Source: Climacium dendroides | Taxonomy: Eukaryota > Streptophyta > Bryopsida > Hypnales > Climaciaceae | Assembly: GCA_950106755.1 (NCBI GenBank) | Contig: OX467091.1 | Location: forward strand, 16,199,538-16,263,537 | DNA length: 64,000 nucleotides | Direction of reading: 5' to 3' | In this document: positions 11,605 through 60,380 of the stretch, piece by piece | How the letters are laid out: each line of letters opens with the position of its first letter | Position numbering within the stretch: the stretch's first letter is position 1 | Program-made: the position numbers and the translations under genes | The notes under the pieces: generated by a model | What the model was told of the DNA's origin: nothing | Database searches by the model: none | The model's input: the letters and a program-made list of their open reading frames with translations, nothing else

Positions 11605-12772
<1,168 letters not shown>

Positions 12773-38529: not shown

Positions 38530-39487
38530 ATCATCACCGCCGATTCAACAAAGCAAATTTGAGGTATTGCACAAATGATGCATTCAAGAACTGATGCATT
38601 GACGTGTACCAAGTATTGTATGACCAACCCACCGTGGAATGCAACGAGGTTCATCTTTTCATTGCGCGGGGTGTACATGCGGAAGTCAAACTTAGAAAGA
38701 AGGTGGATTGGTCTATTGTGGTGGAAAGAGGCAACAAAATTAAAGTGTCACATCCCACAAACGGATTAATCCCGATGAATGCGAGAAGGTATCTAGAGGG
38801 TGGATTGGGACATTTCAGAACAATAGTGGAAGTGCCTCACGACAATTATGTGACCGAAGATTCCTCTACAGATAATGATTCCGATGGCACACGTACGCCT
38901 CCACGACCACCAACTTTCCGGAGTCAGCAACGCATCAGAAGACGGAGGGCCATACGAATGGATGAGTATAAAGAAGGTGTTCCACCAGCAGTTCCTGATG
39001 AACTGGTCGTTGAAGCACCAAATGAACTAGTTCCTGAAGCAACTGAAGAAGAACCTCTTATGCCAATGCAAGAGGAAATAGATGTGCAGGTGGATACGGT
39101 TGAGAGTTTGAAGAAGGATTTGAATGACAAAATCAACGAACTTCAAGGACTACATGAAGATAGTTATAGATTGAGGGTGGAGTTGGAAGACAAGAACAAT
39201 ACCATCACCCGACGATCCCAAGAAATTGGTCGCTTGCAACGTGCTCTTGAAGCGACCATGATAACTAATGAGGTTCATTCCACAGTCGTACAACCTCAAG
39301 ATATTCCTGTAGCAGACGTCACAACAGAGGACGAAGACCTTCCATCCCTTCTTACACGGAATGTGGAGCTCCAAGAGCGTTTGGATGCATTAGTCTCGCA
39401 GTATTATCAATGGAAGTTGGCATGCGTGTTCACCGTGGATAGGAACTGGCAAATGGCTGCCAAGTTCACTAAAATTTTCAACACATA
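38530..39487 (+). pseudogene. RING-H2 gene, segment 2 (middle, coiled coil), between two CACTA insertions
   Basis: Continues the frame of segment 1 after removal of element E. One in-frame TGA lies at 38592-38594; otherwise it is open for 318 codons up to element 2. It includes a beta-rich stretch (EVHLFIARGVH, KVSHPTNGLIP), an acidic linker (TEDSSTDNDSDGT), a Pro/Glu-rich linker and a coiled coil of about 55 residues (around 39095-39265, DTVESLKKDLNDKINEL start). The last codon is split: TA before the insertion at 39488 and T at 59300. The frame across the junction is exact. The single TGA is likely a later nonsense change. Confidence 0.75.
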
Positions 39488-40694
39488 CACTAGAAGAATT
39501 CAGTGTTTTTTTTAACATCGGAAAAAACGTGCCGTGATGTTTTATTTAACAAGGACGGTGCCTGTAGTGACGTCTAAAAAAATCCATTTAAAAAAACGGG
39601 CCAAAAACGTGTCATGTTATGTGCTAAAACGTGCTTAAATTTTTTGTGACATCGAAAACAACAGGGTCACCCAAGAGTTTTTGAGAGTGCCATGTGGAGG
39701 GGTTTTGGCATCCACGTAGGATTTTTAACGATGGGCAGAGACACGTGGGACAACTTTTTCATCCAACGACGTTTTGACGTGTCCAATGATGTGGACCCCT
39801 AAAAATCCGACGTGGAAAATAATTTCCGGTGTACGCAGCCTATGTGGCAATTGACGTGGCACTCTTCTACGGTACATGCCGATGTTCTGTGTGATGTTCT
39901 CTAGGACGTCACATTTGACAAGAGGATGTTTTAAATGACATTAGAGTCAACGAGAATATGCTTTAGGAAACGAGCTGGGTGGACAATACTGTGGAATTTC
40001 TTCTTTGCTGAAATCGCAGACATTGTCCACATACACGTCTATTGTGACATTAAATAGAACAACCTGTGTACTTGGGTATGCATTGCTTTGCGCTTAGTGT
40101 TCCATTCGACACGCACAGTGACAACTGCAGTGTTTTCTTAAGCATTACAGAAGACATACAATGCGAGAGGAAGGATGTTTTCTCGAACAAAATGAACAAT
40201 GTGAATCATAAACCTCAACATTAAAGACGATGTACTCTACAGCCCATATACATGAGTGAATGGAAGATTGAGATATGCCATTAGAAGATGAATTATGTGT
40301 CTTTGTAAGAGATGTCCAAGTATAGAAACCTATGTTTTCAATGGCATTGGGATTATAAGGCCACTTGCCAACTTCTGCACAAAATAGCTATGCACATGCC
40401 CATAGTCTAGTACTACGAAGAAATCCACAACAACATTATCTACAGCACCTTCGGTGAAAACATGGTGCGTTCTACTCAATGTTCTGAATAACATGCTTGA
40501 CCATCATATGCGACGTTCAGTTGGACACGCTGTGGCAAACAAGGACTCACTTCGTTCGAGGTGCATCCGATTTCTTGACAACAGCATCCTGCATCGTACC
40601 ACACCAAGTCAAAACCAACAGTACCTACTCGTGCATGTTTATTTCTGGGACTCTTATATAGCCACAACAAATGTCAAGGAATGCTACACTTGCA

Positions 40695-40907
40695 TTACTC
40701 TTTTAAGTTGCATACAGAAACAAATGAATCTATGGGTGAATGGAATGCAGCCTTCCTAACCTTTTTAGTGGGTTGGGTAGGTTTAGGAAGACCCACCGCT
40801 TTGGGAATTGCTGCCTTCGGTGTAGCCTTCGTGCCCTTCGCAGCTTGCGTGGTCCTTACAGCACGCCGAGGCCGGCTTGAGGACTCACCAAGGACTTCAA
40901 TGTCTTC
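40695..40907 (-). CDS. Basic C-terminal exon in element 2
   Basis: After a GGTGTTGCAG acceptor, the minus strand encodes about 70 codons (EDIEVLGESSSRPRRAVRTT, then Lys/Pro/Ala repeats) ending in TAA. It resembles the basic tails of transposon proteins. It occupies the place where element 1 has its DUF4216-like ORF, and short exon-like pieces with GT/AG borders lie upstream near 40975-41070. It is probably the remnant of the element's third gene. Confidence 0.45.
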   Translation of the reverse strand, partial: EDIEVLGESSSRPRRAVRTTQAAKGTKATPKAAIPKAVGLPKPTQPTKKVRKAAFHSPIDSFVSVCNLKE

Positions 40908-41465
40908 CTGCAACACCATCACACAATTATTATTCACTTTTGACATCCTCTAATCACCTACACTTCCTAGCCTTACCTGAGCACCATTGAAACACTTGCT
41001 TTTCTGTAAGATGCACATAGTTATTGTAAAACATACCTGCACATTGGACGAAGCTAGTTTGCGTGCCTAGAGCGGTGAGCGGTGAGCCTAGAGCGGTGAA
41101 TGGAGAGCATAGAGCAGAAAAAAGAATAAAATAATGAACATTTAGTGGGAATTTACCAAAAATAGAAATAAAAAAGGTTTAGGTCCAAATTTAGTAATTA
41201 TTTGGACCTATTACCATTGAATAAGGGTGCTCCTATGACCGTGGGAATGAAATTATTCACGCACTTTTGACCACTATTACTGTAGGATGGCAGCAAAATG
41301 TGAACAAAAATGTACACACCTTTGAAATTTTCAATGTCAATGATGATTCAATGAGTAGTCAAAATGTACAACAACAACTTTGTGGTGGCCCTTTTAGTCT
41401 CACCACTGTTTCATTCAATCTAAAAAGAGAATTGTACAATGTAGCCCTCGGGCTCAATAGCATCT

Positions 41466-44400
41466 CTAAGTTGCTGGTTGCTTAAGTAGCACCATCTGAA
41501 TAACACGCTTAATTTCATTGAAGCTGAAACTAGGAGCGTGCGTAAAAACATCTATCTCACTATCCAATCCACAAACTACATGAAATATGTAGTACAGATG
41601 CTTACAATTTGTCCATTGTCCACGCTTTCCCAATGATTTGCCCGACATGTCTTTGAAGAAGGGGCATGAACAACTAGGAAATTGGCCAATCGTAATTAAA
41701 TATTGTGAAATTTTGAGACCATTTTGGGACTCAAAGGTGATGATGCAACCCAGGGCAGGAATTGGTACCATAGAAACCTTCAAAATCTGCCCAATGACAG
41801 TAAGAGCAGATGCACAGGAATTGGCGTGCTTCGTTGAAGGTGCCTTTGGATTCCGCCTGATGTTCTTCCCGAATCTGCGCTTTGGAAAGTCGTTAGAGAA
41901 CTCCGGGGTAGGATACTCTGACAGGTCCACCAATGACCCCTCTTCCCTGAATAGCTTCCTTGGAGAGAGCTCCAGACGTGGTGCCAATCAAAAACCAGCG
42001 TTCTCCAAGTCTAGGATCTTCTTCTGTGTGAGATTGGTGCCAATCTTGATAGGCCAAACTTCTGGAACTACAGGTTTGGAAACCACCCACTTACGACGAG
42101 TACCCTTCACGCACCTCTCAATGTCGTCGTTGCAGAAGAAGAACTACATGCGCTCTTGTTTATTCATCCTATTGTTGTGCATGATGCCGTTGTAAGTTGG
42201 TGCAGCCGTACTCTTTCCATCTTATACAATTCGTGCCACACATTTCTTCTTGGTGATGGCCTGTTGAGCGAAGCAAGCCTTCGCTGACATCTTTGGAAGT
42301 CGCGCAATGTGCCATTCATGCTCATTGCATACTGTTTCTTGTATAGCCTTCACATGCTCCATGGTTGGAACTGTAGTAGGTGTTTCTAGTTGAACTGGAT
42401 TATTATGCAGGTCTTCAGTTGCTTCTTGCTGTGCGTCACCTTCTGAAGTGAGATCATAAAATATTGCACCTCCTGCTCGTGTTTGTATTCGAGGGCGAGA
42501 GATGCTAATCTTGTCAGGTCTATGAGAGTCGAACTCCGACCCAGGAGGAAGATCTGCTTTGTGCTTGAGGGAGAGAAATACTTCCTCACCTTGAAGATGA
42601 GGCTCGTGAGTGCAGAAACCGGCAACTCCAGGCATGTTTCGAAGCGCTTGATGAAGCAATTTCAGGATGCCGGAACGTTGGGCGGTTCGTTGGGCGACTC
42701 GAAGCAACAATTCTTCTTTTCCAGGTCCAGTACCCGGTCTCTCACCATTCAAATACTGGTAGTAGGCAACCATTTGCATGAAAGCACGTACGTAATCATC
42801 GACAGTTGCCACATACAAGTCATTACCTCGTTTACCGCTCTGTTGAAGCCACTTGTTGTGTACAGTCTCCGCTAAATTGCACGAGGGCATTTCAGCAAGC
42901 TCATCCTCGGAAAGGGCCTGTGATGTCAAATGAATGGTAGTATAATTTAGAGTGAGGTTACAACTTTACAGAAAATTAAAAGCAAAAAGGCCCGGAGCAA
43001 AGTGTGAACTCACCAAATCCATGAAACCACCCCATTGGCGATAGCAGAAGTGCCAGAAAGCAAGCCATAGGTCAAGACGAACGACTCCTTCATCAGTCGT
43101 TGCCCCGGAGGAAAGCCACCATGATCTGATAGCAAGGTACCGCTCCTCAGCCTCTGCTAACGACTTGGCATTCTTGTATTGCATGCACAATTGACGATGT
43201 TGTCGTTGCAAGTCCGCCCGAATGTCAACCTTTGTATGTTTCACCGATGACTGGGTCCAATGGAACAAACAAGTATGTTCTTGATCCTCCATAGGAATTG
43301 AAGCATCACTGCTACCATATACAATACGAATTGCATTCCAGTTTGCTTGTGCACTGTCTGCTATGAAGCCCTTGAATTGTACGTTAGAAATATTGTGTCT
43401 GGCCACAACAGCATTCAAGTTCTTCCAGAAGATGATTTGAGCGGCAACATCTTTCGACTGCATATTACACACTGCAATGGTCATTACCCGACAATAGGTA
43501 GCATTATAAACATGGCAAGCCATGGAAGTCCAGCCCTTTACACGCTTGACATGGTCGAACATCATCCATGTATTCTGTAAATCTCCACCCGGCTGCATTC
43601 TTGTCACGAGATCAACTCCACTTCCTGGCCCGATCTCAAACATCTTGAAAACAAAGACCTTGTCGGACTCAGACCCTTGGCCAGGGAATTTGTTCTCCTG
43701 GACAAATGCCCAATAGCTAGACCCTCTAAGTTTGGTGATGCTGTCCATGACTCCAAAGCGTCTCAAGTACCGAAACGTCGTGACTTGATTCCGAATACTT
43801 GGGGAAGACATGTGTTTGAACTTATCAAACACCGGTATGAGCTCATCAAGAATAAGTTCCTTTTGCGTTGCTCCATCTGCAGAAAGAAGCAATTCACCAA
43901 GGAATTCCTTGCTGGCTTCAAGGACAATGGCAGAATTAGTTGCTGTTGGAGTCTTCTCTACTTGTTCACCAATGAGGCTCTTTATCTTCTCAGCGACATC
44001 TCTGTATTCGCCAATCTTTATAGGATGACAATGGGTTCCGAGGTGCATACATGCACGAGTCATGTTTCCATGACCAAGAACATAATAAATCTTAGCCAAG
44101 CACCCATCTAAGCATGACGGAGAAACCTTGCAGATTTTACACACGACAATTGAGCCTTTTGGAGGGTTAGATCCAACTTCAAAGGTGAATGAGGAGATTC
44201 CATCCCATTCGGTTTCGTTAGCTTGGGAGGACCGATGCACACGAGATAAATAATCGCAAGCTCTGTTGGTACATTGCAAATGACCTAAGCACGAAGACAT
44301 TCTAAATGTTAAACCCATGTCATTCTTGATATTGGAGGTGATGGTGCAAGTCCAAGCATGGCCATCGTGGCGTTTGTCCATGCCATGAAGGAGCTTTACT

Positions 44401-45140
44401 TGTGACTGTGATGCATATTTCCCCAGCGGGGGGAACTCAAACATCACGTTGCCATCAAATCTAGGGGGAAGGAATTCCACTCTCTCGGTTTTTATTTTAG
44501 TAAAGTCTACCTTAGACAAGATGGACTTTGACCCTTTCCTTGCAGCTAATTTTTTGAGACAATCAACAACGCTCACATAGTCATCAATCCGTGGCGGAAT
44601 CGGAGGCCTAGAAGTACTTGGATGACTGCCTTGCGATGAATTTGTATCATGCGAAGGGTGACATATTACAGTAGGATTGGGGATTGGAATAGTAGAAGAC
44701 GGCAATGTACTGGGGAGCGCATCTTCAGAATCATCACTCAAGAGATGGACGATACGTTCGCAAGGCTCAATCTTAACCTTTCGGAGCATAGGTATTTGCA
44801 GGGTGCATGTAGATGACACCCTAGGGGTGAGGATCTTAGTGCATGCACCTTGAAGAGGATCTTTCAATCCATATACTCGGTACGTCTCCGACTTCAGAAT
44901 CCAATACTGACCTTGATCATTCATAGAGGACTCATGACCTATAGTGTGAAGAAGTTCTCCGGAATCAACATCAAAGACCTCCTCATCAACATGCATAGAT
45001 CCTTCTAGAAATTGAAAACAAAGATGCAAACGAAGAGCACTAACTGTGCACTTTCCATCAGCTCCTACTTGAAAAAAAATAGGAACTCCTTGGCCATTAG
45101 CATGAATTAGCACCATAGGAGGATTTTGAGAATTAGCCAT
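41466..45140 (-). pseudogene. Element 2 transposase: MULE-type DDE plus SWIM zinc finger
   Basis: Exon 1 (45140-43014) is fully open for 709 codons from MANSQNPPM, with a GTGAGT donor. Exon 2 starts at 42917 after CACAG and runs to TAA at 41466. Domains: an N-terminal segment shared with element 1; a Cys/His cluster (CLGHLQC, VVCKICK; about residues 290-345); an RNase-H-like core with D near 529 (MFDHVKRVKGW), D near 595 (GFIADSAQANWNAIR) and CLFHW near 623, as in Mutator/FAR1 transposases; and in exon 2 a SWIM finger (CSCPFF ... NCKH, 41595-41675). In-frame stops in exon 2 are TAA at 42222, TAG at 42144 and TGA at 41988. The first two could be removed by an 84-base intron beginning GTATAAG. 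Exon 1 looks young; exon 2 is damaged or spliced further. Confidence 0.75.
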
Positions 45141-46133
45141 TGCAATGGAGAAAGGAAAGACACGGACAACATGGGAATTGTGAATAGAATTTAAATCTAA
45201 GAGTTCTGCAAGTATATTTTGATGTAAGAGGTTATACAAACATCACTGTATGAAGACATAGACAGATAGAATTAATAAAGAGGGTGATTAAGAGACGTTT
45301 TAATTAGAAAAAATGACGAGAGTCATGTATTGATGAAAAAGATATATTTTTGAAAAGTTGTCAGCGCGTGTCAGATAGGTGGGTTGCTTGTAATTCTGTA
45401 AGTATAATAATAAAGGGTGTTGGCGTTATAAAATAATTATACAATAGAATTGTGAATGAAGTCTAATCCATAGCATCAACAGATGCTGGTTCAATTATAT
45501 AGATTTGCCATTATTAGAGAATACATGTTTGAAAAAAGGCCTTTCATCGGGAAACTACAATGAACCATAATGTAGATGTTAGTTTGAATTACTTTTATTT
45601 ATGGTGGATTTCAAATTTACAAGGACAACGAACTGGCGGTGAGTGTAAGTGTAATAGGGACCTACTAGATTTTAGTGATGGTGACAGTTAGATTGCTAGG
45701 ATAGCCTTTCTATTTATAAAAGATATGACAATCTAAATAAAATAAACAATCTTGAAAAGTATAAACATCTAATTGGAATATTCAAGTAGTCATAATTTAC
45801 TTCATATTTGAAGTAGAGCGTTGAATGAGCGTATTTAGGGTTGTTGAAAATATTGAGGTGGCCGCTAGATCAAGCTTACAAGGTTGTACCCACCAGTTGG
45901 CCATCGAGAGCATAAAGATGTAGAAAATGTCACTTCAGTTACTATTGAGATTCGATGTGCATGATGATTAGTAGTATTAACAAAGATTGATATACGGAGA
46001 AAGAGTCTGTGATTGAGTATTTTAAATTCAATTGTTTGTTATTGAGAAACGTCTGTAGTAAGGGCATTGCCACATTCCCCAACTCAATAGAAGACAGTAT
46101 AGTGGAGAGCTTAATGATGTTCTATTGAGCCAA
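45141..46133. promoter_or_regulatory. Intergenic region between divergent genes of element 2
   Basis: About 1 kb of AT-rich sequence between the transposase start and the small plus-strand gene. It is equivalent to 29005-30501 in element 1. Promoters are expected here by position only. Confidence 0.35.
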
Positions 46134-46983
46134 ATGCAGGATAGAGATAGGAAGAAGAAGCGGAGAAGTGGGTTTTTTTATTCATCTAGAAAGCAACTAG
46201 CCTCATCTAGAAAGCAACTAGCCACATCTAGAAAGCAACTAGCCAAATCTAGAATGTTTAGGCAACAACTTCAACGTTTAGGCATAGACCTTACTAGTAC
46301 AACTAGAACACTTTCGTATCAAGGTGCTTTGTTGAAAGAAGTTGTTGAGACTCTTCCATTGGAAGGCGAGATATCAGGATTTGCGGGATCGCAAGACAAT
46401 CAACCATTCATGTCTGAATGCGAGACCGAAGAAGAGTTGTCAAGTGAAGAACAAAGCAAAGTAAGTATCCATTGGCTGAAGAATATCTTTGATGTCCTAC
46501 AAAATAATGTGGTCTGTTGCAAATCATTCTTTAGGTTTTGAGCATATTGATGTTGATTGTGGAATTAATAGTAACTAATTTTGGTCCAAGCGCTCATTTA
46601 CCTCCGCATGCACTAGAACGTTCAGACACTCTTTGCATCTTGCGGCCGTATCCTCTCCCTTGGACGTCAATTGCAATATGGTTTGCTCGAGTTCCTGTCG
46701 CAAGTATAATATAAGGGTGAATTAACATTGATATGTCTAATACCAAGTCATTGGGGTATAGGGTTTTGTTACTAGAAGCTCGAAAATGACGATACTTAGA
46801 TCAATGTTTCAGAAGGCGGCATTAGTGTCAGAGTATGCGCAAATAGAGGAGACAAGTGGAGAGCAGTTTCAAGAGACCGATCAAGACAGGAATAATCATG
46901 ACTACGAGCTACAACAGAACAACCAAGGCGATGAAGATCTAGACGATTGTGCACAAAGCACACCTTCAAAGGCTTCAGATGCA
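46134..46983 (+). CDS. Element 2 small basic/acidic protein, two exons
   Basis: Exon 1 (46134-46460) starts MQDRDRKKKRRSGFFY. It contains three 7-residue repeats SRKQLAX, a short helix-rich part (LQRLGIDLTSTTRTL) and an acidic end (SECETEEELSSEEQ), and ends at GTAAGT. Exon 2 (46813-46983), after TGTTTCAG, keeps the frame and encodes an acidic, Gln/Asn-rich stretch, ending at another GTAAGT. Later exons were not found. The N-terminus aligns with the element 1 gene at 30502, so this is a conserved accessory gene, divergent from the transposase. The charge pattern (basic head, acidic tail) would suit a DNA-binding accessory protein, but no named domain is visible. Confidence 0.5.
46185..46254 (+). 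repeat. In-frame 21-bp coding minisatellite
   Basis: Three and a third copies of TCTAGAAAGCAACTAGCC plus three variable bases, encoding SRKQLA followed by S, T or K. The repeat is a multiple of three and preserves the frame. Confidence 0.9.
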
Positions 46984-47213
46984 GTAAGTCACTCCATCAT
47001 TGCACTTTCATCTATTTTTTGATCTCTCTACAAACCTCAAAGGTCCTCTTCTAAATTGAATGAATCACGTAGTCGGAATAGGGCTTTACCTCCCCTCCGC
47101 AACATCAAAGAGCACCTACAAGCAGTGGAGGCCGGCTCACATGTGCCAAATGTCCACAATAAAACTAGAGTGTTTGGACCAAGGCTCACTATTTGATTTT
47201 TGAGCCCTCACAA
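46984..47213. other. No gene seen
   Basis: Follows the donor at 46984. A degenerate relative of the following 128-bp unit may begin here, but no feature can be supported. Confidence 0.35.
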
Positions 47214-48060
47214 TGAAGCTTCGGTGCCGAACCCTCTTTGGGGCGGGCCCGTTGCCATCTTGTTTCGAACTGTTGTCTCCCCCCTTGACGTTAGGTTGTA
47301 TCCACCAACTCTAGGAGAGGGCTCAACTAAGCCTCCAAAATGAGGCTTTGGTGCTGAACCCTCTTTGAGGCTGGCCCGTTGCCATCTTTTTTTGAATTCT
47401 TGTCTGCTCCCGTTGACGTAAGGTTGTACCCACCAGTTGCAAGAAAGGGCTCAAATGGGCCCCCAAAATGAGGATTCGGCACCGAACCCTCTTTGAAGCG
47501 TGCCCGATGCCATGTTGTTTTGAACTCTTGTCTGCCCCCGTTGACGTAAGGTTGTACCCACCAGTTGTAGGACAGGGTTCAAATGTGCCCCCTAGATGAG
47601 GCTTCGGCGTTGAACCCTCTTTGGAGCTAGCCTAGGATTGTCTAGCCGCTTGACAGGCTGCCCGTCCACCCACCCATCCATGCCCATCCGATTAGCCTCT
47701 CGCCTGCTTGAAATCCGCCTAACGTCAATCAACGACATGTTGACCTTCTTTTTTCTCAAAATAAGAGGCTTAAGCACAAATTTAGGGGTATCAAGTATGA
47801 AATTAAGAAAACTACCTCATTTGGCATGTCCTAAGTATGAATTTGAAGGCCCGTCTCCTACCTTTGACGTCAAATTATACCCACCAGCTATAGGAGAAGG
47901 CTCAAATGAGCCCCTAAAATGAGGCTTTGGCGCCGAACCTTCTTTAGGGCAAGCCGTTGCCATCTTGTTTTTTAAACTCTTGTCCACCCAGTGACCTATG
48001 GATGCACCCACTAGTTTGAGAAGGGGTTCACAAAAGCCTTGCAATGAGTCTTTGGTGCCG
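47214..48060. repeat. 128-bp minisatellite, diverged units
   Basis: Units start TGAGGCTTYGGYGCYGAACC at 47214, 47341, 47469 and 47597, a period of 127-128. After an insertion-like break with unrelated sequence, two diverged units begin near 47920 and 48045. Each unit contains GACGTAAGGTTGTACCCACC. It lies between the small gene and the ParB gene. Confidence 0.85.
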
Positions 48061-48599
48061 AACTCCCTAGATAACTTGGTGGAATTTTATTTCGATTTTT
48101 TTTTATAATGTAAAAATTACAATAAGAAATGGCCTTTGCTAAGAATTCCATGGGAAAGAAGTCTCAAAAATACAATTTTTTTCTATGAGATAATAGTCTA
48201 GTTTGATTCCATACTTTGTAGATGCCTACAACAAGGAGTTTTTATCGTTTTTAGAAATCCTTAGGTCAAGTGGTGTAGCATCCTCCCAAAATTTTAGCTC
48301 CAAATTCATAGTACTTCCAACTCCAAAAATTAAAAGTGTAACATATGACCGAGGGTTCTTTTTAATTTATATATGTCACACTTGTCATTTTTATTTTATT
48401 TCATAAGAAAAATATGAATTATGTTTGGAGTAGTAATATGCACCTTCATTTCAAATTTCAACTTGTTTGCATTAATACTCTAAAAGTAGTGATTGAATGA
48501 AGATTGAGCAAATAAGTTGTGACACCAAGTAGTACAAGTCATTCTTGCATTCATCTTACAAAGTCCTAAATTTTCAAGTCTTCAACATCTCCAAGGTTT
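48061..48599. other. No gene seen; AT-rich sequence
   Basis: Spacer between the minisatellite and the 5S-like segment, with only short frames. Confidence 0.4.
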
Positions 48600-48690
48600 A
48601 GAAGCCGTGGTAGGAGGGTGCTAAGTACATTGGAGTTAAGCAAAGGTAGAGAGGAATAGCTCAAGGATGGGTGACCAAGGGAACTAGGTT
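48600..48690 (+). ncRNA. 5S rRNA-derived segment (pseudogene or SINE3-like head)
   Basis: Contains GGAGTTAAGC and AGGATGGGTGACC separated by exactly the 22 bases found between the same two blocks in plant 5S rRNA (internal promoter A box and C box). A trailing GGGAA also matches. The 5' half is poorly conserved and shortened. It is not a functional 5S gene. It could be a 5S-derived retroposon head or a decayed 5S copy carried by element 2. Confidence 0.55.
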
Positions 48691-49063
48691 GAAAAAACCT
48701 CCTTCTCATGGCTTCGCCCGCGGAGCTCAGGGAGTTGGGGGAATTGGGGGACTTGGGGGACTTGGGGGAAAACCGAACTTTCTTTTAGGTAAATCCTAAA
48801 TCGCCATCTTCACCTTCTCTACGGTTTTGTCCTTGACCTGTCCCGGCGGTGACTTGCGACTTGTCCCTTGTCCCGGCAAACTTCGGCGACTTGTCCCTGT
48901 CCTGGCAAACTTTGGCCCCTGCTTGCCCTCGACCGCTCGACCTGTCTATTCGGCACCGAATGCTCCTAGCGCCCGCCTGCTGTCCAGCAAGCATTCGGCG
49001 CCGAATGCTCCCAACCCTGATTCCACGCACCCTCGGCCTGTCCACCTTTGGTTTGCACGTAGA

Positions 49064-52000
49064 ATGGCTAGCTCCTCTACAGTAAGACTAAGATCCCAAA
49101 TCCCTACACTCTTCAATTTGTATTTTTCAAAACCTAAACCACATGTTGCTTCTTGTTTCTCAAATTTCAAATGTTTTCTAATTTTGTGTAGGTTGTCGCG
49201 CATTCGCAACTTGAGCATGAAGGTCTTCAATCTGAAGAGCAACTCAGAGTTCTTGATGTCATTCAGGTAATTCTCTTCATTCTTAACTCTTGGGAATGTG
49301 GCATAATCTTTGGGCATACATTTTTTTTGGGTATTAAATCTTTATTGTAAATAGATTTTAATGAAGTATGTGCCTTGTCCAAGTTTTTTATTTCTCATAA
49401 TTTGCATTGCCATTAATTGCATGCCAGGATTTGTCACTTTCTGATTCTGAGGATTCTACTATTCCGAAATGTCCAATCGAGCTGCAAGACTCAAAGGCAG
49501 GAAAGCAAGCAAGGAGGCTTCACCAAAAGTCTGATTTTGTGAAGGTTCTCGATAGTATGCGCATCCCATTAGGTCGATTCTATGTCCCCCTCTATAGGAT
49601 GAGTCCTCTTCCAAGAGTCTGACCAATTCAAGAGGTTGATGTCGCTACCTTGGAAAAACGATTTGAGGGGGGCTACATCGACGGTGACCGTGCCACGTAC
49701 ATATCCATTTTTGATGACCATATGTCATCTACGGATGTCACTGAGGAGCGCATAGCTTCTTGGGATCCTCATTGGCGTGATGTCAATGAGCGCTTTGAAA
49801 ATCAACTTCAGTCTAATCCCAACTATGCTGCATTCCGAGGGAAGATGTTTTTTGTGTGGGATGGCAATCACAGGTTCACAGCTTGGTGGCGCCACATCAA
49901 TGCTCAACATGTCGATGATCTTCAATGGCATTATTCCGTGTTTTGCATTGTTCTCAACCCCAAAGGACGTATAACATCGTTGTTCAATTGCATGCACGAT
50001 GTCAATTGGTGAGTACATTTCTTTCATTTAGACTTTATTTCACTTATACTCTATTTCATATGTTATTTAGTTCACTCTAACAACTCTATTTTTCAGGTCT
50101 ACTCAACACGATCATGTCAAGACTAGCTTAACTGCTAAGTTGCAACGAATTCGGTACTATGGTGGACTTAACCTTGACGATTTTAAGGACTTGCTTACCG
50201 AGGAGGAGTTCAATACATGTCTCAAAGTGAAGAAGTCGCGTCCCACTTGGTTTCTTGTTACAATTGACGTGTTCATCTCTTTTCTTTACCAAGTAAGTGA
50301 TTCTATTAATTCATTATTCTTACTATATCGTCTTAAAATACATTTCTTATCTCTTGCTATTGTCATTGTGTTCTAAATTTTATTTTATTTTCATTTTTTC
50401 AGCAAGATATATCTCGTGCTGCCGGTGATGCGGCCACTGAGTATCACAGAACGACACCAGTTGAGAAGATATCAGCCAAGGGAGTTTGGGATGCTATGGC
50501 ATTGGCTATAGATACTATGGTGAAAGCCATAAAAGCTAAGGACTTTGTAAAGTATCTCGCCGTTGCAAACCCCAAGAATGGCGAGGCTTTCTTTGATGAG
50601 GTAAATTCATTATTATCTCATATCTTTCTTTTCTTCAATTTCATCGCATTCATGGTTTTCTTTATCCAGGTTTTATTAACTCTAGTTTTCTTTCATAAAC
50701 AAATCAATTCTCATTTCAGCCTCTTCAAGAAGACTGAAATGACAATTGAGAAGTTGCAAAAGGTAGCAACTGCAGCAGTTGAACCACGCTTCAAGGCGCA
50801 CTGGCTCCACTGGTGGAACTCCGGCTCCATTCTTCGAGCCTCTTTTCGCTTCCCAGTTGGTGATGTCAAGGAGAGCATCTTGGATACTTGGCTCAACCGA
50901 GCTACATTCTGGGCTCAGGTATTTCCTCCACTTTTCATTTAAATACATAGTTGTCATTCTATTTGGCTCTTTACTTTTATCGATGCCACTCTATATCTAA
51001 TTTTCTCTTTCTTTGTCACTATGTAGCTCGAGGAAATGTTTATTGTGCATTTCGAAGAACTTTGTGGGAGGGGCGAGCTTTTGGTGAATTGGGAGGCCTC
51101 TCCTAGATTATTGAAGCCCTCAGATTATGTTGAGAGGTGGCGTATCATGTTGTGGGAGAAAGCATTCTTACCATTCCTTCATCCAAACATCAAGCCTCCT
51201 TTTTTAAAGAGTACCAGGCTTGACAATGTCCCATCAGCAGACCTTGCTATAAAACGGCTACTTTACAGGTTTGTGTTTTGTTTCATCATTTGTTGGGAAT
51301 TTTACTCATTCTCAATACACTACACACTTCTTATGTTTTGTATCACATTTGCAATTGCTTCACTTTCTTCTTTGATTATTTACTTCTATTCTCATTTTCT
51401 TCTATTTTTCTGTTGTAGGTATGTAATGAGAGAGCTCATGCCTAAGAATGCACTTGGAGATAACAATTGCCCTCCATTCTTTGGAGCATGGATTCAGCCA
51501 TCTTCAGATCTTTGCATCTTCACGCCCATGCAGTTGAAGAAGTTTTCTACTGCTCATCTCCATGGTGGTGGTTGGTATTTGGAGTGCCCTGTGAACTTCA
51601 CTCCGGATGAAGAGGTGGAGCTCCGCAATAGCATTGTTTGCACTATATCTCCACCTCCAGTTCCAGATACCGAGGATGAGGTTGTATTCTTGGACCTCTC
51701 ACAGTCACCTCATGCTGCAACAGAAGATGGCACCTCCTCAAAGAGGAAGCGCTTAAGGAAGGCTGACAAAGAGAAGGCGAAAAAGGAGAAGTTAGTTAGA
51801 GATGCAGAGGAGCAAGCTGCAACTGTCGAGAGGGTTGTGGCAAAGGCACTTGCAAAAGTGGCTGCTACCAACGGTGTTCCTTTGCCTTCTTCTTCAGATA
51901 TCTCTGTACCTGTTGATGTTTCTGGTTACTCTTCCCCTATTATGGACTCACATGCAGGAGGATCGAGTTACATAGAGACCAGTCGAAACATAGTGCACAA

Positions 52001-53605
52001 TCGCATGCAGCGCGTGCCTACTGTGTCTAGGTCTTCTGCACCACTTCTTGCTACCTCTTCTGAGTCATTCATTCAAAATGCCTCGGTGCATTCCATCATG
52101 GATTCTTTAGGAGATCCAAATGGTCCTCCTCCGCTTTGGACCCAGCTGCATGACTTCATCTCCCGGGTACTTTTATTAAACATTGATCTACAATTTTTTC
52201 TTTCTTCTATTTTGCTAGTTCATTGATATTACAATTTTTTTTACTTCTTATTCCTAATTGTGTCATTGATGTTCCGATTTATTTTCTAATTCAAATTTCT
52301 TTTCCAGGTTGGAACAGGGAGGTCCCGTCGTGTGTCTAATGACAAATGCAAGCACACTGGGATTGATTTGCTCATTGCAGACATCCTAGAGAACTTGTCA
52401 GTGCTTGGGATTTCTGTACCTAGTACGGTCATTCCACCTTGGAATGTTTGACCGGAGAAGTATGTTGATACCATCTTTGAATTTGCAGAGATTTACCTGC
52501 ATGACGATGCAGCACTTCTCCTTTTCCATCCAAATGACCGCGATGTTCTTATCGACATGGAGGAGTGTGCGGAGACTTACAACTTCCGCTTGGAGTGTGA
52601 TTGGTGGGGCATGAATGATCTTCCATTGGCTTCTCCACGGAATCCATCTACTACGGTAATTGTCATCTTTATCTCTTCTTTTAGTTATCATCCATTCAAT
52701 TTTTTTCTTTAATTCTTTTTTCATTTTCTTATTTTATATTTTATATTTTATATTTATATTTTCTTATATATATTAGTGAACATTTTGTTTTGGCAGTGCA
52801 CCCGTTTTTGAGTTCAATTATTCGTATGGAGTAGCAATGTCCAATCCAAATTCTCCATTGGCGAGAATTTTGAACACCATGACTACTTCTACAACTTTGT
52901 GAGTTCTGACTCACAACTCATGCACGGGAGTGTTCCATGGCGAGGGCCTCGGGAAAAAAATCCGGAATTTGTGAAGTCCTATATTGAGGCTTTCTCCAAA
53001 GTTGGAGATATTATATTGGATTGGAATGCCTCTACAGGTTACTTCTTACTTTCATTCTTTTTTTGCTACAATTTTTTCAGTATCTAATCTTGCATTTTAG
53101 AATCATATCATATTTGTTTTAACAGTCAATTTCTACGGCAGGTGCTTCCATTCGTGCTTGCCAATCTCTTGGCAGGCACATTTTGGCCTTTGAGGAAGAC
53201 CCGGAGATCTTCAAGGCTCTTTTGGAACCCCTCATTTCCACCTCGATTCCTGCTTCTATAGTTCAGAAGAGGAAAGTTGTGCGGCGAGGCATGGGAGATC
53301 GTGCAGAGAAGAAGCTAAAACTCAACCGCGTTCCTTCTTGTGAGTAAGTTCTTCCCTTACTTACAAATTTGTTATATTTCTTACATTTTATGGTCTCAAC
53401 TTTGTTTCTTATTCTTTAGTTACTTTGCAGAGCTCCAACATTACCCTCATCTCCTGCTGCATCGATGCTTATGGTGTTTACACCATCAGCCAGCCTATTT
53501 CTTCCTTGCTATGCAGCAGACGCGACGATGGTGATGGCAGCTTCGACATCTCTACCTAAACAACGATCCAAGCACTTATATGATAGGCGTGTTTGCAATA
53601 TGTAG
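49064..53605 (+). pseudogene. ParB-like domain / beta-class DNA methyltransferase-like protein, 12 exons, in element 2
   Basis: Proposed exons: 49064-49081 (MASSST), 49192-49266, 49428-50008, 50097-50292, 50403-50600, 50720-50918, 51027-51268, 51419-52166, 52308-52655, 52797-53037, 53142-53343 and 53431-53605 (TAG). All introns are GT-AG, mostly 80-160 bases, and phases agree. Exon 3 holds a ParB/Srx-like region, with VWDGNHRFTAWW matching the ParB GxHR..A signature. Exons 10-12 resemble a beta-class amino-methyltransferase in circular order: an IPPWN motif where the family has D/N/S-PP-Y/F/W, a LLLFHP strand, then the SAM-site segment DIILDWNASTGASIRACQSLGRHI and EEDP. The middle is Lys-rich linker. 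Damage: TGA at 49620, 52449 and 52809, and a 1-bp insertion near 50735. Target base unknown; this copy is probably inactive. Confidence 0.65.
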
Positions 53606-53985
53606 ATGTAGAGGCCAACAAAGGTAGTTCTGAAGACGAAGACATATTATTCTGATGTACTCGCTTTGAAAAGAACAGGCTGAGCCCTAGAGTGCATTAG
53701 CGTCTGCCACTAGTGACGTTCACTTCGATGTCCAATTTGACACGCACTTCTAAAAAAAATTGAAGCATTGCAAACAAACGCTACTACGCTACGACACCAT
53801 CCTCATACAAGGCAATTCATGGAAATAACGTCACTAGCCTAACAAAGGGAGTGCTTCACGTTGGTCACTTGGCACTTAAAATTTTTCGCCAAAAAAAGGT
53901 TCCTCCACCCACGAAGAGTCAAGTTACCCTGACATGCAACAACAGATTCAAGAGAAAGATTTCCAGAAGGGTCTTGGAGGCTTAC
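53606..53985. other. Spacer in element 2; no gene seen
   Basis: Contains a CACTAGTGACGTTCAC at 53708 that resembles a subterminal motif but has no partner end. No coding support. Confidence 0.4.
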
Positions 53986-55009
53986 CGTTCTGAGATGCAG
54001 ACTCGGAGCTAGTTTGATCTCGAGAAGCGGCAGTAAGACTGTCGTATACATATGGGGTCAAAAACGACAGGAACCTCCCTATGTAAGAGCCAGCAGGCGC
54101 GGTTGATTCACTTTGTGAACGACTGTCTGTAGCATTAGTTGCTGAAGCCCTAGAATGAGGTGGAGTATCCTTTAGATTACCACTGCCTATTAGTATCAAA
54201 GCTGAGCGTGGACTAATGTCCAACTTAGATAATGTCATATCCATATCTGCACAAAATATGGACACTTGAATTAGAGCAATAGCCTCACTGTTCCAAATCT
54301 CGGTGAAATGATTCCAAAGACAGTTACTGATCCAAAAGCAGAGCAAGTAACAAAACAAGGGACAGCAACTGATTGCAATAGAGAGGATACAAATAGTCAA
54401 GAAATAATTAGCATCCTTGCTTCCCTCCTGCAATCGTAGCATCAGGTTGTGCTTCTTCACTTCATCCAACACCTGTCAAAAGTCCATCTCAAATTAGGTC
54501 AATCTCGGGTTTCTGGATGAAAGGTTGTGAATTGAAATCCTAGATACTAAAGTTACTATTATTTGTTAATTTGGGTGTTACTCAAACATCCCCGGAGGAG
54601 GACTTGAAAGTACACCCTAATCAAATTTCATTCGGTTCTTTCAATTACTCTGACGTAAAAGCCTTTGATGAAATTCCAGCAGAATACGATTCCTCTACCC
54701 TAGAAACCTCAATTCAATTGCTTTTCCAGAAAGAACGTACCGCAGGATTCTGAAAAGTTGTCAACTCCTGCGATACCGACTCCCCATTCTCCCCTATGGA
54801 AACACCAAAACCTTGAAACATCAGTTTGTAACTCCATCATTCATTAATTCATCCACTTTGGCAACACACACGGAAACTCTACCTGCGACGAAGACGACGA
54901 GCACTAAATTGTAGGCCTGAGCGCACACGATGGCCTCGGATATGGAACCCTGGAAAAACAGAGTCCCCGGGGGATCCGAGAAATCCTGGAGCCCGGCGGT
55001 AGCCTCCAT
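53986..55009 (-). pseudogene. Captured fragment of a PUX11-like UBX-domain gene
   Basis: Minus-strand exon-like pieces in order: 55009-54883 (MEATAGLQDF ... FFQGSISEAIVCAQ ... VVFVAG, then GTAGAG donor), which matches the start of plant UBX proteins of the PUX11 type (a 'fkGSIpEAI' segment); a piece from 54472 after CACCTGTCAAA read in reverse (VLDEVKKHNLMLRLQEGSKDANYF), matching their thioredoxin-like second exon; and 54246-53986 after TGTGCAG (DMDMTLSKLDISPRSALILI, then a Ser-rich tail and SYIGRFLSFLTPYVYD), matching the end of the UBX domain and the C-terminus. The long middle of the host gene is missing, so this is a shortened copy. It is probably a host gene piece captured by element 2. 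Confidence 0.6.
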
Positions 55010-55099
55010 GCCGACGCAATGGGATGCAAGTGGAGCAGAGAACAGACGGCGGAGTGGAAGTGGGAAACGGGAGAAGTAAGATTTTGTACAGGAAAGATG

Positions 55100-55190
55100 A
55101 AGCATGGCGAGTATCTTGAGTATCTTGGGGAGCACAACGACGAAGATGAAGAAGACGAAGAAGACGAAGACGAAGAGTCGAAAGCTTTGG
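55100..55190. repeat. GAAGACGAA-type microsatellite
   Basis: Short run of GAAGACGAAGAAGACGAAGA-type repeats, giving a spurious Glu/Asp-rich frame on the plus strand. It lies upstream of the PUX11-like start. Confidence 0.7.
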
Positions 55191-57588
55191 GGGCAAGCGA
55201 GACCTCCTGCCCAGGCTGCTGCCCATTAAAAAAATTCCAAAGGAAAAATTTTTGTTCGCTCTACAAAATTTTGCTTCAGATTTATTTTTGCTACTCCGTA
55301 TTATTTTCCCAATCTTGTTCCGTGGTGTCAATTTTGCTCTCTAATACATTCTAGAACATAAAGGCGATCTATAAAGTCTTGGGATGTAACCCTAAGGAAC
55401 CCACATATATTGCACCAAAAATTGTCAAATTTTTTGCCACCAATTAGATCAAAAGTGCCGTAAAGCAAATAAATAAATAAAATAATGAAAAATAAAATCA
55501 ACCCCTCAAAATTGCACTAGTCTAATATGAAAATTTTTGAATTTTTTTTCACGAACATTGACCTTTTAGATTGCAAGATTATAGCATTTGAAGTGAGGAA
55601 GAAAAAGAATTGCAAACCCAATAAGTAGGCTCACCAAGACTTAGTTTGACTCTTCTTTGAATGAGAATTTTGTACGAAAACATACTTGGGGGGAAGAAAA
55701 GACCAATACATTTCATATCATGTCATTTAATTCAACTTGTCAAATTTTATCCTTCTATGAATTTCTTCCATTTTGCAATCCTCCTTTGTGCCATTTTCAC
55801 GGAATAATCGCCATTTTCTTGAAATTTTTCATATTGGTGAATATTTGAGTGCTAATAGATACAAGTTATGGATTGTTAAAATGACATTATGACTCCACTC
55901 TATGGATAATTTTGTAAGAACCAACTTACCAAGATTTTTAAAGTAGAAACCCTAAATCCTAAAACCCAAACTCTAAAATCTAAACCGTAAACTAATTTCT
56001 ACTTCAAAGAACCAACTTACCAAGATTTTTGAGATAAATTTCTACACAATAGCTAGCATGTAAAGTACTTCCTAATTTTTTCAAAATACTTTTATTTAGT
56101 AAATTAAATTCCCAAGCATAATGTTCTCACATATATTTTATTTTAAAAAAAATTCTTTTTAAGAAGTAGAAATGAAGAGGGTTTGGGTACTAGTGTTAGA
56201 AGTTGTTTAGTGGCAAGGGGAACATAATGACCTTTGATCTAGGATTTCATGATTTAAAAAGATTATATTTCTACTAAAGAGGTATATTTTTGGCCCTTAT
56301 GTCAAAAAAATTTATGAAATGTACTCAAATTGAATTTATAAGCACAAATCCATTCCTCGCTCTATAGACATTTGCCCTTTGGGGCTTGAAGGAAAGGCAT
56401 CAATTCATCAATCATTCTAGTTATGGCTTCAATTTTAGTTAAAATATATTTTAATTGTTGCAATAGTAAAAAAAAACTACAAATAAGATGCAAACTCATT
56501 GCAAATGGACCTTTCAAGTTTAAGAATTTTGTATTGCATAACTATTCAATTTGAATTTTTTTTTGTCCTCTATTGTCGATCAATTAGTTTGAATTCATAC
56601 TAGACACCAATATGTAGTGTGTTTGGCAATGGGTATTTAAATGTAGTAACGTACATAGCAAAAAAAACAAGTTTATTTCTAATAACAACCTTTTGGTCAA
56701 ATTTGATTTAGCCAATTTTGAAGTGACCTTTGAGATTTATGTGTTGGCATATATAGGTCCACTTTGCAACTATAGGATACCTTCGTAGCACCTTCGTAGC
56801 TAAAATTGAAGCCATAACTAGAATGATTGATGGAATGAAGCTCATACAAAAATAAGGCCATATTCGTTAAAATGAGACAAAGTGTAGTCTCAATTTTATC
56901 TTGGACTTGAAGATAAATTGTTGTAACTATTCAATTTTGAGACTATTCGGTAATTTGAGACTTTCATATATTAATATGTACAAAAACCTTTGATTGCCCA
57001 AGGTTGCACTTTCATTTTATCTTTGACTCAAGGATTAAATCACTATAATTGTTTTAGGGTTGAAGTCTCAAAATGGTCATTTTAACGAATATGGCCATAA
57101 ATGATAAAATGAAGCAAGAACAAAAATAACCAAATTTCAAAGTCATACTACTAAAAAAATTCTATTTGTAAAATTTAAAATGTAAAAATTTATATCATAT
57201 TTGACATGTGTCAAATGTTGTCACAAATGTTTAAAGTAAAATCAAATGTTAAAAGCCTTGAAATGAAAATTTTAAAAAATAATGATAGAAAGGTGATTGA
57301 AATGGATGAATTGATAAAGCTTTTAATTTGCTTATATTGGCAAAATGGATTTGAAGTTATACAAAGACAATATTTTGGAATTTTTGTGAATAGTAAATAA
57401 TTAGAATTAGGGAGAATTTTTCCTTCCTTCATTAAATTAAATGAGTTTATGGCGTTAGCTACAACGTCGTGAACGACATCGTCTTCAACAGCCCGCTTGT
57501 CGGAGTTAACGTCAACAAGAACATTGTCTTTGACATCGCTTTGGCTAGCTATGGGGACTGGCTCAACGACATCTACATGAGCTGTGGG
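55191..57588. other. No gene seen; AT-rich interior of element 2
   Basis: AT-rich sequence with a few CCCTAAA-like tracts (about 55950-55990). Two similar segments (around 56770-56900 and 56950-57110) mention the same phrases, so a small internal duplication is possible. No gene. Confidence 0.4.
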
Positions 57589-57915
57589 CTACAACACGGG
57601 CACAAGACAGTCCTTCTGTGCCATTTTCGACGCCTCTGCCCTAGGTGACGTGAGAAGTGGTGGATTCCCTGCCCCGATAGGCGAGGATGGCTCCGTGACA
57701 TCCAGGGTTCCCCCAGCACTTGCTTTACACTGACTTGCGAGGATCTTCCGTAGCATTTCTTCCATGCTTTTGTGGAACGTGCTCACGGTCTCACTAAGGC
57801 GACTTACACTGCTCTCAAGCTCATCCATCCGACTGCGCATCTCTTGCAACTCTTTGCCATGGGGACTTCGACCTCTGCGCTTCTCTTCTTCTAGACGTTG
57901 CAACTCCTTTGCCAC
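57589..57915 (-). CDS. Coiled-coil protein fragment near right end of element 2
   Basis: A 108-codon minus-strand frame begins with a charged coiled coil (MAKELQRLEEEKRRGRSPHG, then ELQEMRSRMDELESSVSRLSET heptads to about residue 65) and ends in a Ser/Pro-rich tail. Coiled coils of this kind are common in the second proteins of CACTA elements (TNP1/TNPA type), and its place beside the right end fits. But the sequence is short and the match is compositional only. It may be a single exon; the CDS start is uncertain. Confidence 0.4.
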   Translation of the reverse strand: MAKELQRLEEEKRRGRSPHGKELQEMRSRMDELESSVSRLSETVSTFHKSMEEMLRKILASQCKASAGGTLDVTEPSSPIGAGNPPLLTSPRAEASKMAQKDCLVPVL

Positions 57916-58133
57916 TTCTGCTATTGGTAAAGTACTTTGTAGAGGATGGATGAAACACTAAATTGGATTAGAATGTGGTAGAATACCTTCTCTACATAAG
58001 TACCTACCAATTGGATCAAGTGAAAAGTGAAAATAATGTTTATTTTATCTAAAAAAAAGTACGTTATATAAATACATCTTCAAAAAGTACTTTTCTGACG
58101 TACTTTGTAGGGGGGCGTAATATGCTTTCACCC
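57916..58133. other. No gene seen
   Basis: Short spacer upstream of the coiled-coil frame. Confidence 0.35.
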
Positions 58134-58615
58134 TATGGAGACTGCAAGTCATTCCCAAATTGTTTGAGCCATCTCTAAACCCAGGTGGGAAAGCACTTCC
58201 TGGCACTCTCCACACGACCATTCACCCCAATTTTTTTGGGGGAACCCCCGAGCCCCAACTCAATGGAATGAACTTGGCCATAACCCCCCCATGTTCTCCC
58301 CATTTAAATTTTTTCCCAACTCCCTAAATCCAAAAAGCACTGGGAAGAATTCACTGTGGGGACTTCAAATTACTCCCAAATTATTTGGGCCATCCACGAA
58401 CCCCCAATGGAAAGCACTTCTTCGCACTCCCCGTACTACCATTCACCCCCATATTGGGGTGGGACCCCCAAGCCCCAACCCAATGGAATGAATTTGAACT
58501 GGACACCCCTATATTCTCCCCATTTAATTTTTTCCCAACTCCGTAAATCCAAAAAACATTGGAAGGAATTCACTATGGGGACTGCAAGTCACTCTCCATT
58601 TTATGGAGCCTAATT
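58134..58615. repeat. 220-bp tandem repeat, 2.2 copies, in the right subterminal region of element 2
   Basis: Units start TATGGAGACTGCAAGTCA at 58134, the related TGTGGGGACTTCAAAT at 58356 and TATGGGGACTGCAAGTCA at 58574. They contain C-rich runs (CCCCCAAGCCCCAACC) and GGAATGAA motifs. Confidence 0.88.
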
Positions 58616-59296
58616 TGCAATCCCAAAGCCAATGGAATAATGTCACATTGATCCCGACACTCCTAAGTAATCCCCATTTTCTGTTCTCAAAACCCGTCTC
58701 CAAATAATATTGCGTAACTTCACCTCTGTGATAAGGTTATCCCAATGAGTCTCCATTTTTTATTTCCCATCTTTCATGTTTTAGGACCTAAAATATTTAA
58801 TTCTGTACATCCTTTTTATTTTGGCATACCCTAGACTTGTAACACCAAAACACATTTAGGATGTCATTACATGTATCTATGTCACTTTAATCCTACCTTG
58901 TACCCATGACTTCACATCCTCCCAGAAAGCCTGAATTTTACACCCTCAAGCTCTTTCCTATATTGATCAGGTGTTTTCCCTATAGGGCAGCAACCCCCCT
59001 GCCTTCTCAGTGACAACAGTGCACTTGCCCGCAGTGAAAGACGCACCAGTGGCTGACGTGGCCGATTCGCGTTTTTTTTGACGTCATCTGAAACATCCTT
59101 TGTTTTTTTTGACATAGTGAAAAACACGTCCGTTCAAAGTGACATCCCTATATTTCCTGACGTCTATTATGACGTTTCAGATGACATCACAAAAAATTGT
59201 CCCTGATCTACGCGTTTGTCCAAAAACGTAGTGACGTCAAAAATAACGGGTGATGTCACAGCGTAACGCAGTCAAAAACATGGTTTTCTTATAGTG
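58616..59296. promoter_or_regulatory. Right subterminal region of element 2
   Basis: The last 250-300 bases are rich in TGACGTC, GACATC/GATGTC and ACGTGGC-type motifs in both orientations and end in the CACTA terminal repeat. In CACTA elements such motif clusters bind the element's own protein. Confidence 0.55.
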
Positions 59297-59299
59297 ATA

Positions 59300-60380
59300 T
59301 CTTGAACACAATCAAGAACGTGTCTTCGGCTTAACTTCTTGGGCCCTTGTGGACGACCTCTTCCAACTCGAGAAAATGGCAACAAAAGTCATCTCCGGAA
59401 ATCAGATTGTCATTGATTGGGCTCAAAGTGGTTGGGATTTTCAGAATGCCATATCTACCCATGTGACCACCCCCAGTAAACTATTATGGCCAAAACCATT
59501 TGCCTTTGTTGAAGATGGAACTCAGTGTATAATTTGTTTAAATAACTTTGGCTCGGAAGGTGGAATGCATTTGGGCACGTGTGGGCACTTGTATCACCCA
59601 ATTTGCTTGATCAGCTTAATGGTCAACCGTAGACGCTGTGTAGTGTGCAAAGCTCCTTTCCACAAACATTTATATGAGTTGTTTGGCTTGGTCAAATTCA
59701 TGCCACCAGGTTGGGAATTTGATGCCAACAATGCACCTAACCATCCCAGCAAATGGGGAGAAGACCTTGTCTGGAATTGGCGGTACAAGTACCACTCGTT
59801 GGAGAAGTCTTGACTCTGTAATCAATGGGGTTGGGAAAATGATCCAGATGCAGTTGTCAAAGTGTGCCACAACTTAATTAAAGGCACATCGGAAGCAAGC
59901 CAAGGAAAGAGGAATTTCTTCTTCCAATGCTTCAACGGGCATTGGGATGAAAATGAGAAGAAATTTCGATTTGGGCCCCACCCCCAGAACTGGCTTTGGA
60001 ATAAAGATGGAGTGCGTATTAACGAGCATGAGGTGGTGGACATTGAGAGCAACAACGACGATGGATATGATATGCCTGGTCCACGGGAAAGAGTCATGAT
60101 GTCGGAATCCGAGTGGCGAAACCAATTCAAACTTGATGCAGTAGATTTTCTGTTGGACCAACATAGTCCGCAAACGCGTCAAGCGCTTGAAGAGCTCCAA
60201 CAATCCCAAGTTTTAAGGGCCATATTAGAGGAGGATGGGCCAGCTAGGCAAATTTGGTTTGCAGTTCGGAGGCTTCGCTTGGGCTCTGATGAAGACCACA
60301 TTCTCGAATGCGGCACACATGACGATGAAGCAGGTCCAAGTGGCATTGCTAGTAGTCCTATGGATGTGAACGAAGCCTAA
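59300..60380 (+). pseudogene. RING-H2 gene, segment 3 (RING finger and C-terminus)
   Basis: Continues the frame of segment 2 across element 2 without loss of phase (LEHNQERVFGLTSWALVDDL). It carries a C3H2C3 RING-H2 finger: CIIC at about 59526, then C-G-H, H-P-I-C and CVVC near 59640-59650, which would bind two zinc ions and marks a likely E3 ubiquitin ligase. A Trp-rich region follows (WGEDLVWNWRYKYHS). TGA at 59811-59813 interrupts the frame, which is otherwise open to TAA at 60380. The C-terminus is acidic (THDDEAGPSG). Together the three segments make 751 codons with stops at 38592 and 59811. A shorter transcript starting inside segment 3 could still make a RING protein. Confidence 0.75.

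Follow-up and report, generated by a model that had tools for sequence, protein, structure and literature searches.

Results

A twelve-exon gene within nested transposons

The window analyzed here is a 64,000-nucleotide stretch of the genome of the moss Climacium dendroides (contig OX467091.1, positions 16,199,538 to 16,263,537, forward strand). It contains a twelve-exon gene, which we call the accessory gene, and a transposase-like gene transcribed away from it. Both belong to one copy of a transposon resembling Mutator-like elements (MULEs), and this copy sits inside a CACTA-type element (Table 1). The accessory gene is preceded by an array of palindromes, and its C-terminal domain derives from bacterial-type DNA amino-methyltransferases.

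The first-pass annotation of this DNA had proposed twelve exons with consistent phases. Because all 11 introns are GT-AG and the joined exons (1,050 codons) carry three internal stops, whereas 200 mononucleotide shuffles of the exons gave a mean of 55 and never fewer than 37, we conclude that the twelve-exon gene is real. GC content is 0.46 in its exons versus 0.26 in its introns. Exon 6 stays in phase only if its acceptor is the AAG at 50729; splicing at the CAG that lies nearer, at 50719, would cause a frameshift. The internal stops, in-frame TGA codons at 49620, 52449, and 52809, were absent from the annotation; open relatives are known for exon 3 and for exons 9 and 10. The broader proposal of a spliced, transposon-borne gene with a C terminus like that of beta-class amino-methyltransferases was upheld as well.

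Table 1. Features of the nested elements in window coordinates
Feature	Positions	Strand	Details
Accessory gene, twelve exons	49064..53534	+	Joined frame, GT-AG introns
Exons 1 to 6	49064-49081, 49192-49266, 49428-50008, 50097-50292, 50403-50600, 50730-50918		
Exons 7 to 12	51027-51268, 51419-52166, 52308-52655, 52797-53037, 53142-53343, 53420-53534		
Exon 3 with WDGNHR and GGYIDGDR (ParB region of the first-pass annotation)	49428..50008	+	7 protein relatives
Diverged beta-class amino-methyltransferase domain, exons 9-11	52308..53343	+	PF01555, PHROG, phage, and plasmid matches
Motif IV position (DPPY in bacteria)	52380..52391	+	Window: DILE; relatives: mostly DIPE or DMPE
IPPW (xPPW of the first-pass annotation)	52431..52442	+	Conserved [IV]PxW motif, distinct from motif IV
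Motif I (S-adenosylmethionine-site position), DWNASTG	53019..53037	+	Last codon split by intron 10
Tandem repeats of 128 bp and seven palindromes resembling TTCGGCGCCGAA	47201..49005	+	Upstream of accessory gene
MULE-like transposon copy with both genes	41046..53645	+	Left end 41046/41047 (GGACGAAGCTAG); right end missing
Transposase-like gene	41466..45242	-	Open frames 42966-45242 (758 aa), 42222-42965, 41466-42143
Outer CACTA-type element	39488..59296	.	Target-site duplication (TSD) ATA at 39485-39487 and 59297-59299; 19,809 bp
Interrupted open reading frame (ORF)	38595..59813	+	38595-39487 and 59300-59813; coiled coil and RING finger

The accessory gene resides in a multicopy MULE-like element

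The left limit of the unit, at window position 41046/41047, is common to all four other copies that were read, and in each of these the transposase part stands alongside the methyltransferase-like gene (97-98% identity over the 1.1-3.3 kb read). On the right, the match to the window breaks off at 53645 in 28 of 29 other loci and at 53435 in the remaining one. The sequence beyond this point is a tail that the window copy lacks: 18 of the 29 loci carry the anchor for it, and 16 of these 18 end 482-483 bases on, the remaining two running off the locus at 361 and diverging at 272. Nowhere in the window was a match found to the first 300 bases of this tail.

MULEs make target duplications of 8-11 bp, and some of them lack terminal inverted repeats. 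Direct repeats of 10 bp, within that range, lie at or within two bases of the limits in all four copies; the window copy, having no right end, is excluded from this count. In 17 loci the right end has no near copy of the 11 bases that open the left end, and the window shows no exact inverted match of at least 8 bases; a 22-nt motif is inverted near both ends, as judged by eye. The transposase-like gene, which has one in-frame stop near 41988, shows by eye a C(2)H (CLFH) after D and a SWIM-like CSC...CKH; we take C(2)H and the SWIM-like CxC...CxH to be MULE features. From its coordinates, the copy at locus L023 was calculated by hand to be about 13.2 kb long. Because its target duplications are 10 bp long and its transposase-like gene shows C(2)H together with a SWIM-like finger, the unit is, judged from sequence, a MULE-like transposon of about 13 kb, here lying inside the CACTA element. 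CMC transposases, by comparison, have C(2)C (PMC12730594).

The window copy is broken: besides the missing right end, it has the three stops in the accessory gene and the one in the transposase-like gene. Elsewhere the family is abundant. An exon 9 search of the moss's own genome gave 836 candidates, and all 150 that were scored matched. Thirty of these are full-length, at 87-100% identity; a group of about 17 falls at 51-59%, and about 100 lie at 35-47%. By a hand count of the listing, roughly four in five of the 150 scored places are without an internal stop. Exon 9 is stop-free in 22 of 30 close loci (the window's own included) and in 18 of 20 distant loci, hand-picked from the match list; all three methyltransferase exons were matched in each of the 20 diverged loci fetched. 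These observations establish the accessory gene as a resident second gene carried by a MULE-like DNA transposon that is present in many copies. The roughly 100 places at 35-47% identity suggest a much larger related family. Many of them have one common open-frame length (137 aa), and a dozen were read for motifs.

The C-terminal domain derives from amino-methyltransferases

The annotation had suggested comparing the methyltransferase region with PF01555 (N6_N4_Mtase). The window copy matched this profile at E 1.8e-5 and 25.3 bits, 1.4 short of the 26.7-bit cut-off, with GDIILDWNASTG and LGRHILAFEEDP falling within the domain. PF01555 was also matched by each of seven other joined copies from the same genome, hand-picked from the loci read (E 5e-8 to 0.0025), and three of the seven exceeded the cut-off with 28.0, 33.5, and 27.8 bits; one joined copy spans profile positions 28-212 of 221. 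Among the PHROG methyltransferases the best value was 1.3e-5, and phage and plasmid methyltransferases matched at 3e-6 and 2e-6, respectively. A methyltransferase model of our own scored 53.6 bits against 6.0 for the best of 2000 shuffles, its training sequences having been picked as query matches and the score not being independent; the Pfam and PHROG values are independent of that model. PADLOC returned weak type II methyltransferase matches only (best 1.2e-4). Full-length protein searches, viral contig scans, and a genome contig scan found no relative, and the middle part of the protein had no match among phages.

Motif IV precedes motif I, which is the beta-class order. Domain homology together with this order places the domain in the beta-class N6/N4 group, and on that footing it is a diverged descendant of a beta-class N6/N4 amino-methyltransferase.

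The motifs themselves are altered. The annotation had described an xPPW motif followed by an S-adenosylmethionine (SAM)-site motif. The methyltransferase domain does lie there, but xPPW was mistaken for the catalytic motif: when aligned, the relatives' [VIL]DL[ILV].. D[IML]PE lands on the bacterial VDLV.TDPPY, and the DPPY position reads DILE in the window. We had considered IPPW as a motif IV with its catalytic residue replaced by Ile; this was rejected, as the genomic relatives show it to be a misalignment. Across 50 loci, the window's own included, motif IV is mostly DIPE, DILE, or DMPE (D-x-P-E) and departs from [DNS]PP[YFW]. Its Asp is retained in 45 loci (26 of the 30 in subfamily A, 19 of the other 20) and its second Pro in 41. 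The fourth position is never aromatic and is Glu, Lys, or Asp in all 50.

The SAM motif of amino-methyltransferases is FxGxG. Motif I is here mostly DWNASTG or DC[KTS]AATG (e.g. DCKAATG, DCTAATG), that is, D..A.TG in place of D..xGxG, and the first glycine of FxGxG is altered in nearly all loci readable there; the phage methyltransferase set has GxG. Because the DPPY position is D-[IML]-P-E and motif I is mostly D..A.TG, catalysis appears doubtful, though the Asp is mostly retained.

A palindrome array precedes the gene

When up to two mismatches are allowed, the window has seven occurrences of the palindrome TTCGGCGCCGAA, always between 47220 and 49005, and none of 100 shuffles reached seven. 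The last palindrome lies 70 bp 5′ of the ATG, and the window copy has none outside the array upstream of the gene. Four other copies carry 9, 11, 9, and 15 such palindromes (5, 5, 2, and 7 of them perfect), so that an array of 7-15 stands upstream in all five copies examined. For the four other copies, mononucleotide shuffles gave a mean of 0.07 palindromes per stretch and a maximum of 2 (400 shuffles). The spacing is partly shared as well, with a palindrome at −70 and at −115 in all four other copies and at −169 and −236 in three of them.

Exon 3 is conserved and without a ParB match

Exon 3 has seven relatives in a large protein collection, at 91 to 63% identity. They are open where the window copy has its stop; in six of the seven, similarity ends at the predicted exon 3 donor, and WDGNHR is kept in six of the seven. 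The annotation had read this N-terminal region, with its WDGNHRF, as ParB-like, a claim that gained no support from any of the tests run. Searches of Pfam, PHROGs, and PDB by sequence or profile, and tblastn to phages and plasmids, gave no significant ParB match; the tblastn of the N-terminal part yielded chance matches only among phages (10 records, E 8) and none among plasmids. With ParB models of our own, exon 3 scored under the best shuffles, and profile-profile comparison with ParB returned a probability of 0.1. A ParB search with the insertion cut out was likewise negative, and all these searches together yielded nothing past a ten-residue look-alike. Exon 3 has no relative in a prokaryote genome scan, and three plasmid matches of the methyltransferase domain that were examined have no ParB domain by Pfam. 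The exon falls outside the ParB sequence profile, and of the two domains sought by profile search of the exon products, PF01555 was found and ParB was not.

The stretch GGYIDGDR (49668-49691) in exon 3 is conserved across the family. It was considered as a LAGLIDADG motif and dropped, its E value of 0.95 in a PDB profile search probably reflecting chance.

The outer CACTA element and other features of the window

The outer element has CACTA ends, CACTAGAAGAA at 39488 and TTCTTATAGTG at 59296, flanked on both sides by ATA; CACTA ends with a 3-bp TSD are characteristic of CACTA/EnSpm elements. TGACRT sites number 6 in its first 500 bases and 11 in its last 309, with 0 to 4 per 500-base bin between (38 bins). 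When the element and one ATA are removed, a single frame of 468 aa is restored, and its RING finger (zf-RING_2, 1.8e-7) straddles the junction. A CACTA-type insertion is well supported because of these ends, the ATA duplication, the restored frame, and the TGACRT density. The interrupted RING ORF is possibly a gene of another mobile element. It is followed by a second frame, of 188 aa, the two together spanning 38595-39487 and 59300-60380.

Pfam scans that read through stops found no CACTA transposase in the six frames of 39488-49389, the minus frames of 49388-59289, or the plus frames from 53600 on; the outer element is therefore non-autonomous or decayed. The element's CACTA ends did not turn up in the flanking sequence that was read for four other gene copies. 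The annotation had placed the gene in a CACTA-ended element; the ends and 3-bp TSD are real, but the gene's vehicle is the MULE-like element within, and the CACTA element was rejected in that role given the left limit and 10-bp TSDs of the other copies. We infer the order of insertion of the two elements from their position.

Four shorter CACTA-ended stretches with 3-bp TSDs (22724-24550, 35963-37167, 37433-38526, and 19829-21746) are likely non-autonomous elements. The window also contains a second, SWIM-type transposase copy at 24788-29019, about 53% identical and with stops, and a partial copy of the ribosomal protein uL14 (RPL23) on the minus strand at 12085-12483. The best PDB match of this uL14 copy is the wheat protein; together with the intron type and the CACTA ends, it points to a land plant. 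When the methyltransferase-like protein was searched against the window by tblastn, no further gene of its kind came up.

Discussion

We give about an even chance to the proposal, made by analogy with VANC, that the accessory protein binds the palindrome array and serves as a self-regulator or anti-silencing factor of its own element. The protein would recognize the array upstream of its gene and, once bound there, would control its own element, most likely through sequence-specific opposition to host silencing; methylation by the protein would probably be weak, altered, or lost. The motif changes across the loci read seem to favor binding or regulation over methylation.

Several observations weigh against this reading. 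The transposase-like gene matches no Pfam model, and the data on element ends and TSDs come from only four copies. A PF01555 search run directly on the moss's own genome (412.6 Mb, 123 contigs) gave no match, probably because introns split the domain. The array lies partly within the 128-bp tandem repeats, so that the palindrome counts are not independent. The ratio of nonsynonymous to synonymous substitution (dN/dS) in subfamily A was 0.62 for exon 8 (22 loci), 0.69 for exon 9 (30 loci), and 0.39 for exon 10 (29 loci), partly near decay, and in groups of three it ranged from 0.12 to 1.27, the latter for exon 11 in one group. Constraint, which speaks for the reading, is seen in subfamily B (8 loci), with 0.23 for exon 9, 0.29 for exon 10, and 0.44 for exon 11. 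One pair joining A and B gave 0.15 for exon 9 at a dS of 2.3, exons 10 and 11 being saturated. This pattern fits constraint in lineages together with decay after insertion.

The same figures bear on the notion that the gene is a captured gene or passenger fragment, carried by the transposon and without a role. The broken window copy, the stops in exon 9 (8 of 30 loci, window included, and 2 of 20), and the dN/dS of 0.62-0.69 for exons 8 and 9 in subfamily A speak for it, but the match of three methyltransferase exons in every diverged locus, most of them stop-free in exon 9, and the lower dN/dS of subfamily B make it improbable. A second transposition protein without an epigenetic function, such as an end-binding or target-choice factor, would account for the transposase part that adjoins the gene in the four copies read and for the conservation of the gene over diverged subfamilies; we consider it unlikely, though by no means far-fetched, with the palindromes of the window copy lying only upstream of the gene and nowhere else.

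An active DNA amino-methyltransferase, placing N4-methylcytosine (4mC) or N6-methyladenine (6mA) on its own palindromes as a self-mark or a block to silencing, strikes us as rather unlikely. The mostly retained Asp and second Pro and the conserved layout of the SAM region would suit such an enzyme, and bacterial-type 4mC enzymes are used by a liverwort and by bdelloid rotifers (PMC8885841, PMC12344493). Set against this are the loss of the DPPY aromatic in all 50 loci and the change of the first FxGxG glycine nearly everywhere it could be read; in the rotifer enzyme N4CMT, changing SPPY to APPA eliminated activity (PMC8885841). Because the motifs are altered, active self-marking is less likely than a VANC-like role, and its specific form, in which an amino-methyltransferase with the new motif D-x-P-E would write 4mC or 6mA on the array, we regard as distinctly unlikely. 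Were it true, self-marking would be a chemical passport for the element against RNA-directed DNA methylation.

The fusion of ParB and a methyltransferase from a phage or bacterium, which the annotation had favored, is very improbable. WDGNHR does resemble the GxxR box found in ParB-like proteins, whose strand order can also be matched by eye, but every search described above failed to connect exon 3 with ParB or with a prokaryotic relative, and the three plasmid matches of the C-terminal domain that were examined come without a ParB domain by Pfam.

The accessory gene may help its transposon to evade or rewrite host silencing. The many open copies in a 413-Mb genome, the shared altered motif, and the palindrome array make anti-silencing and self-marking directly testable.

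The closest parallel is that of the Arabidopsis VANDAL elements, which belong to MuDR (PMC12730594). VANC acts on its own element by binding non-coding tandem repeats there, which induces loss of silent marks (PMC10398659). Like the present element, and compared here by the anatomy of an array upstream of the gene, VANDALs carry a gene besides the transposase and have tandem repeats, which for VANC are the target regions; unlike the gene described here, VANC is credited with no methyltransferase-derived domain in the excerpts of those two papers. Other DNA transposons with epigenetic genes, as listed in PMC12730594, include those with TET/JBP dioxygenases in fungi and SET genes in oomycetes, alongside the Vandal regulators. 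They too are DNA transposons whose extra gene acts on an epigenetic mark, but the enzyme families differ, as do the hosts except for Vandal. In streptophytes and dinoflagellates, DNMT3 genes occur within Copia and DIRS retrotransposons (PMC12344493), likewise placing a methyltransferase in a mobile element, but a cytosine-C5 enzyme and a retrotransposon. The bdelloid N4CMT and the Marchantia 4mC methyltransferases are bacterial-type amino-methyltransferases that likewise occur in eukaryotes; they are presented as acquisitions from bacteria and not as genes of a mobile element (PMC8885841, PMC12344493), and in N4CMT the motif is SPPY versus DIPE here. Transposons with epigenetic accessory genes were already known, but among the matches listed in open-licence full text, with subscription papers and Repbase outside that search, none described a family of plant DNA transposons built around a gene derived from an amino-methyltransferase.

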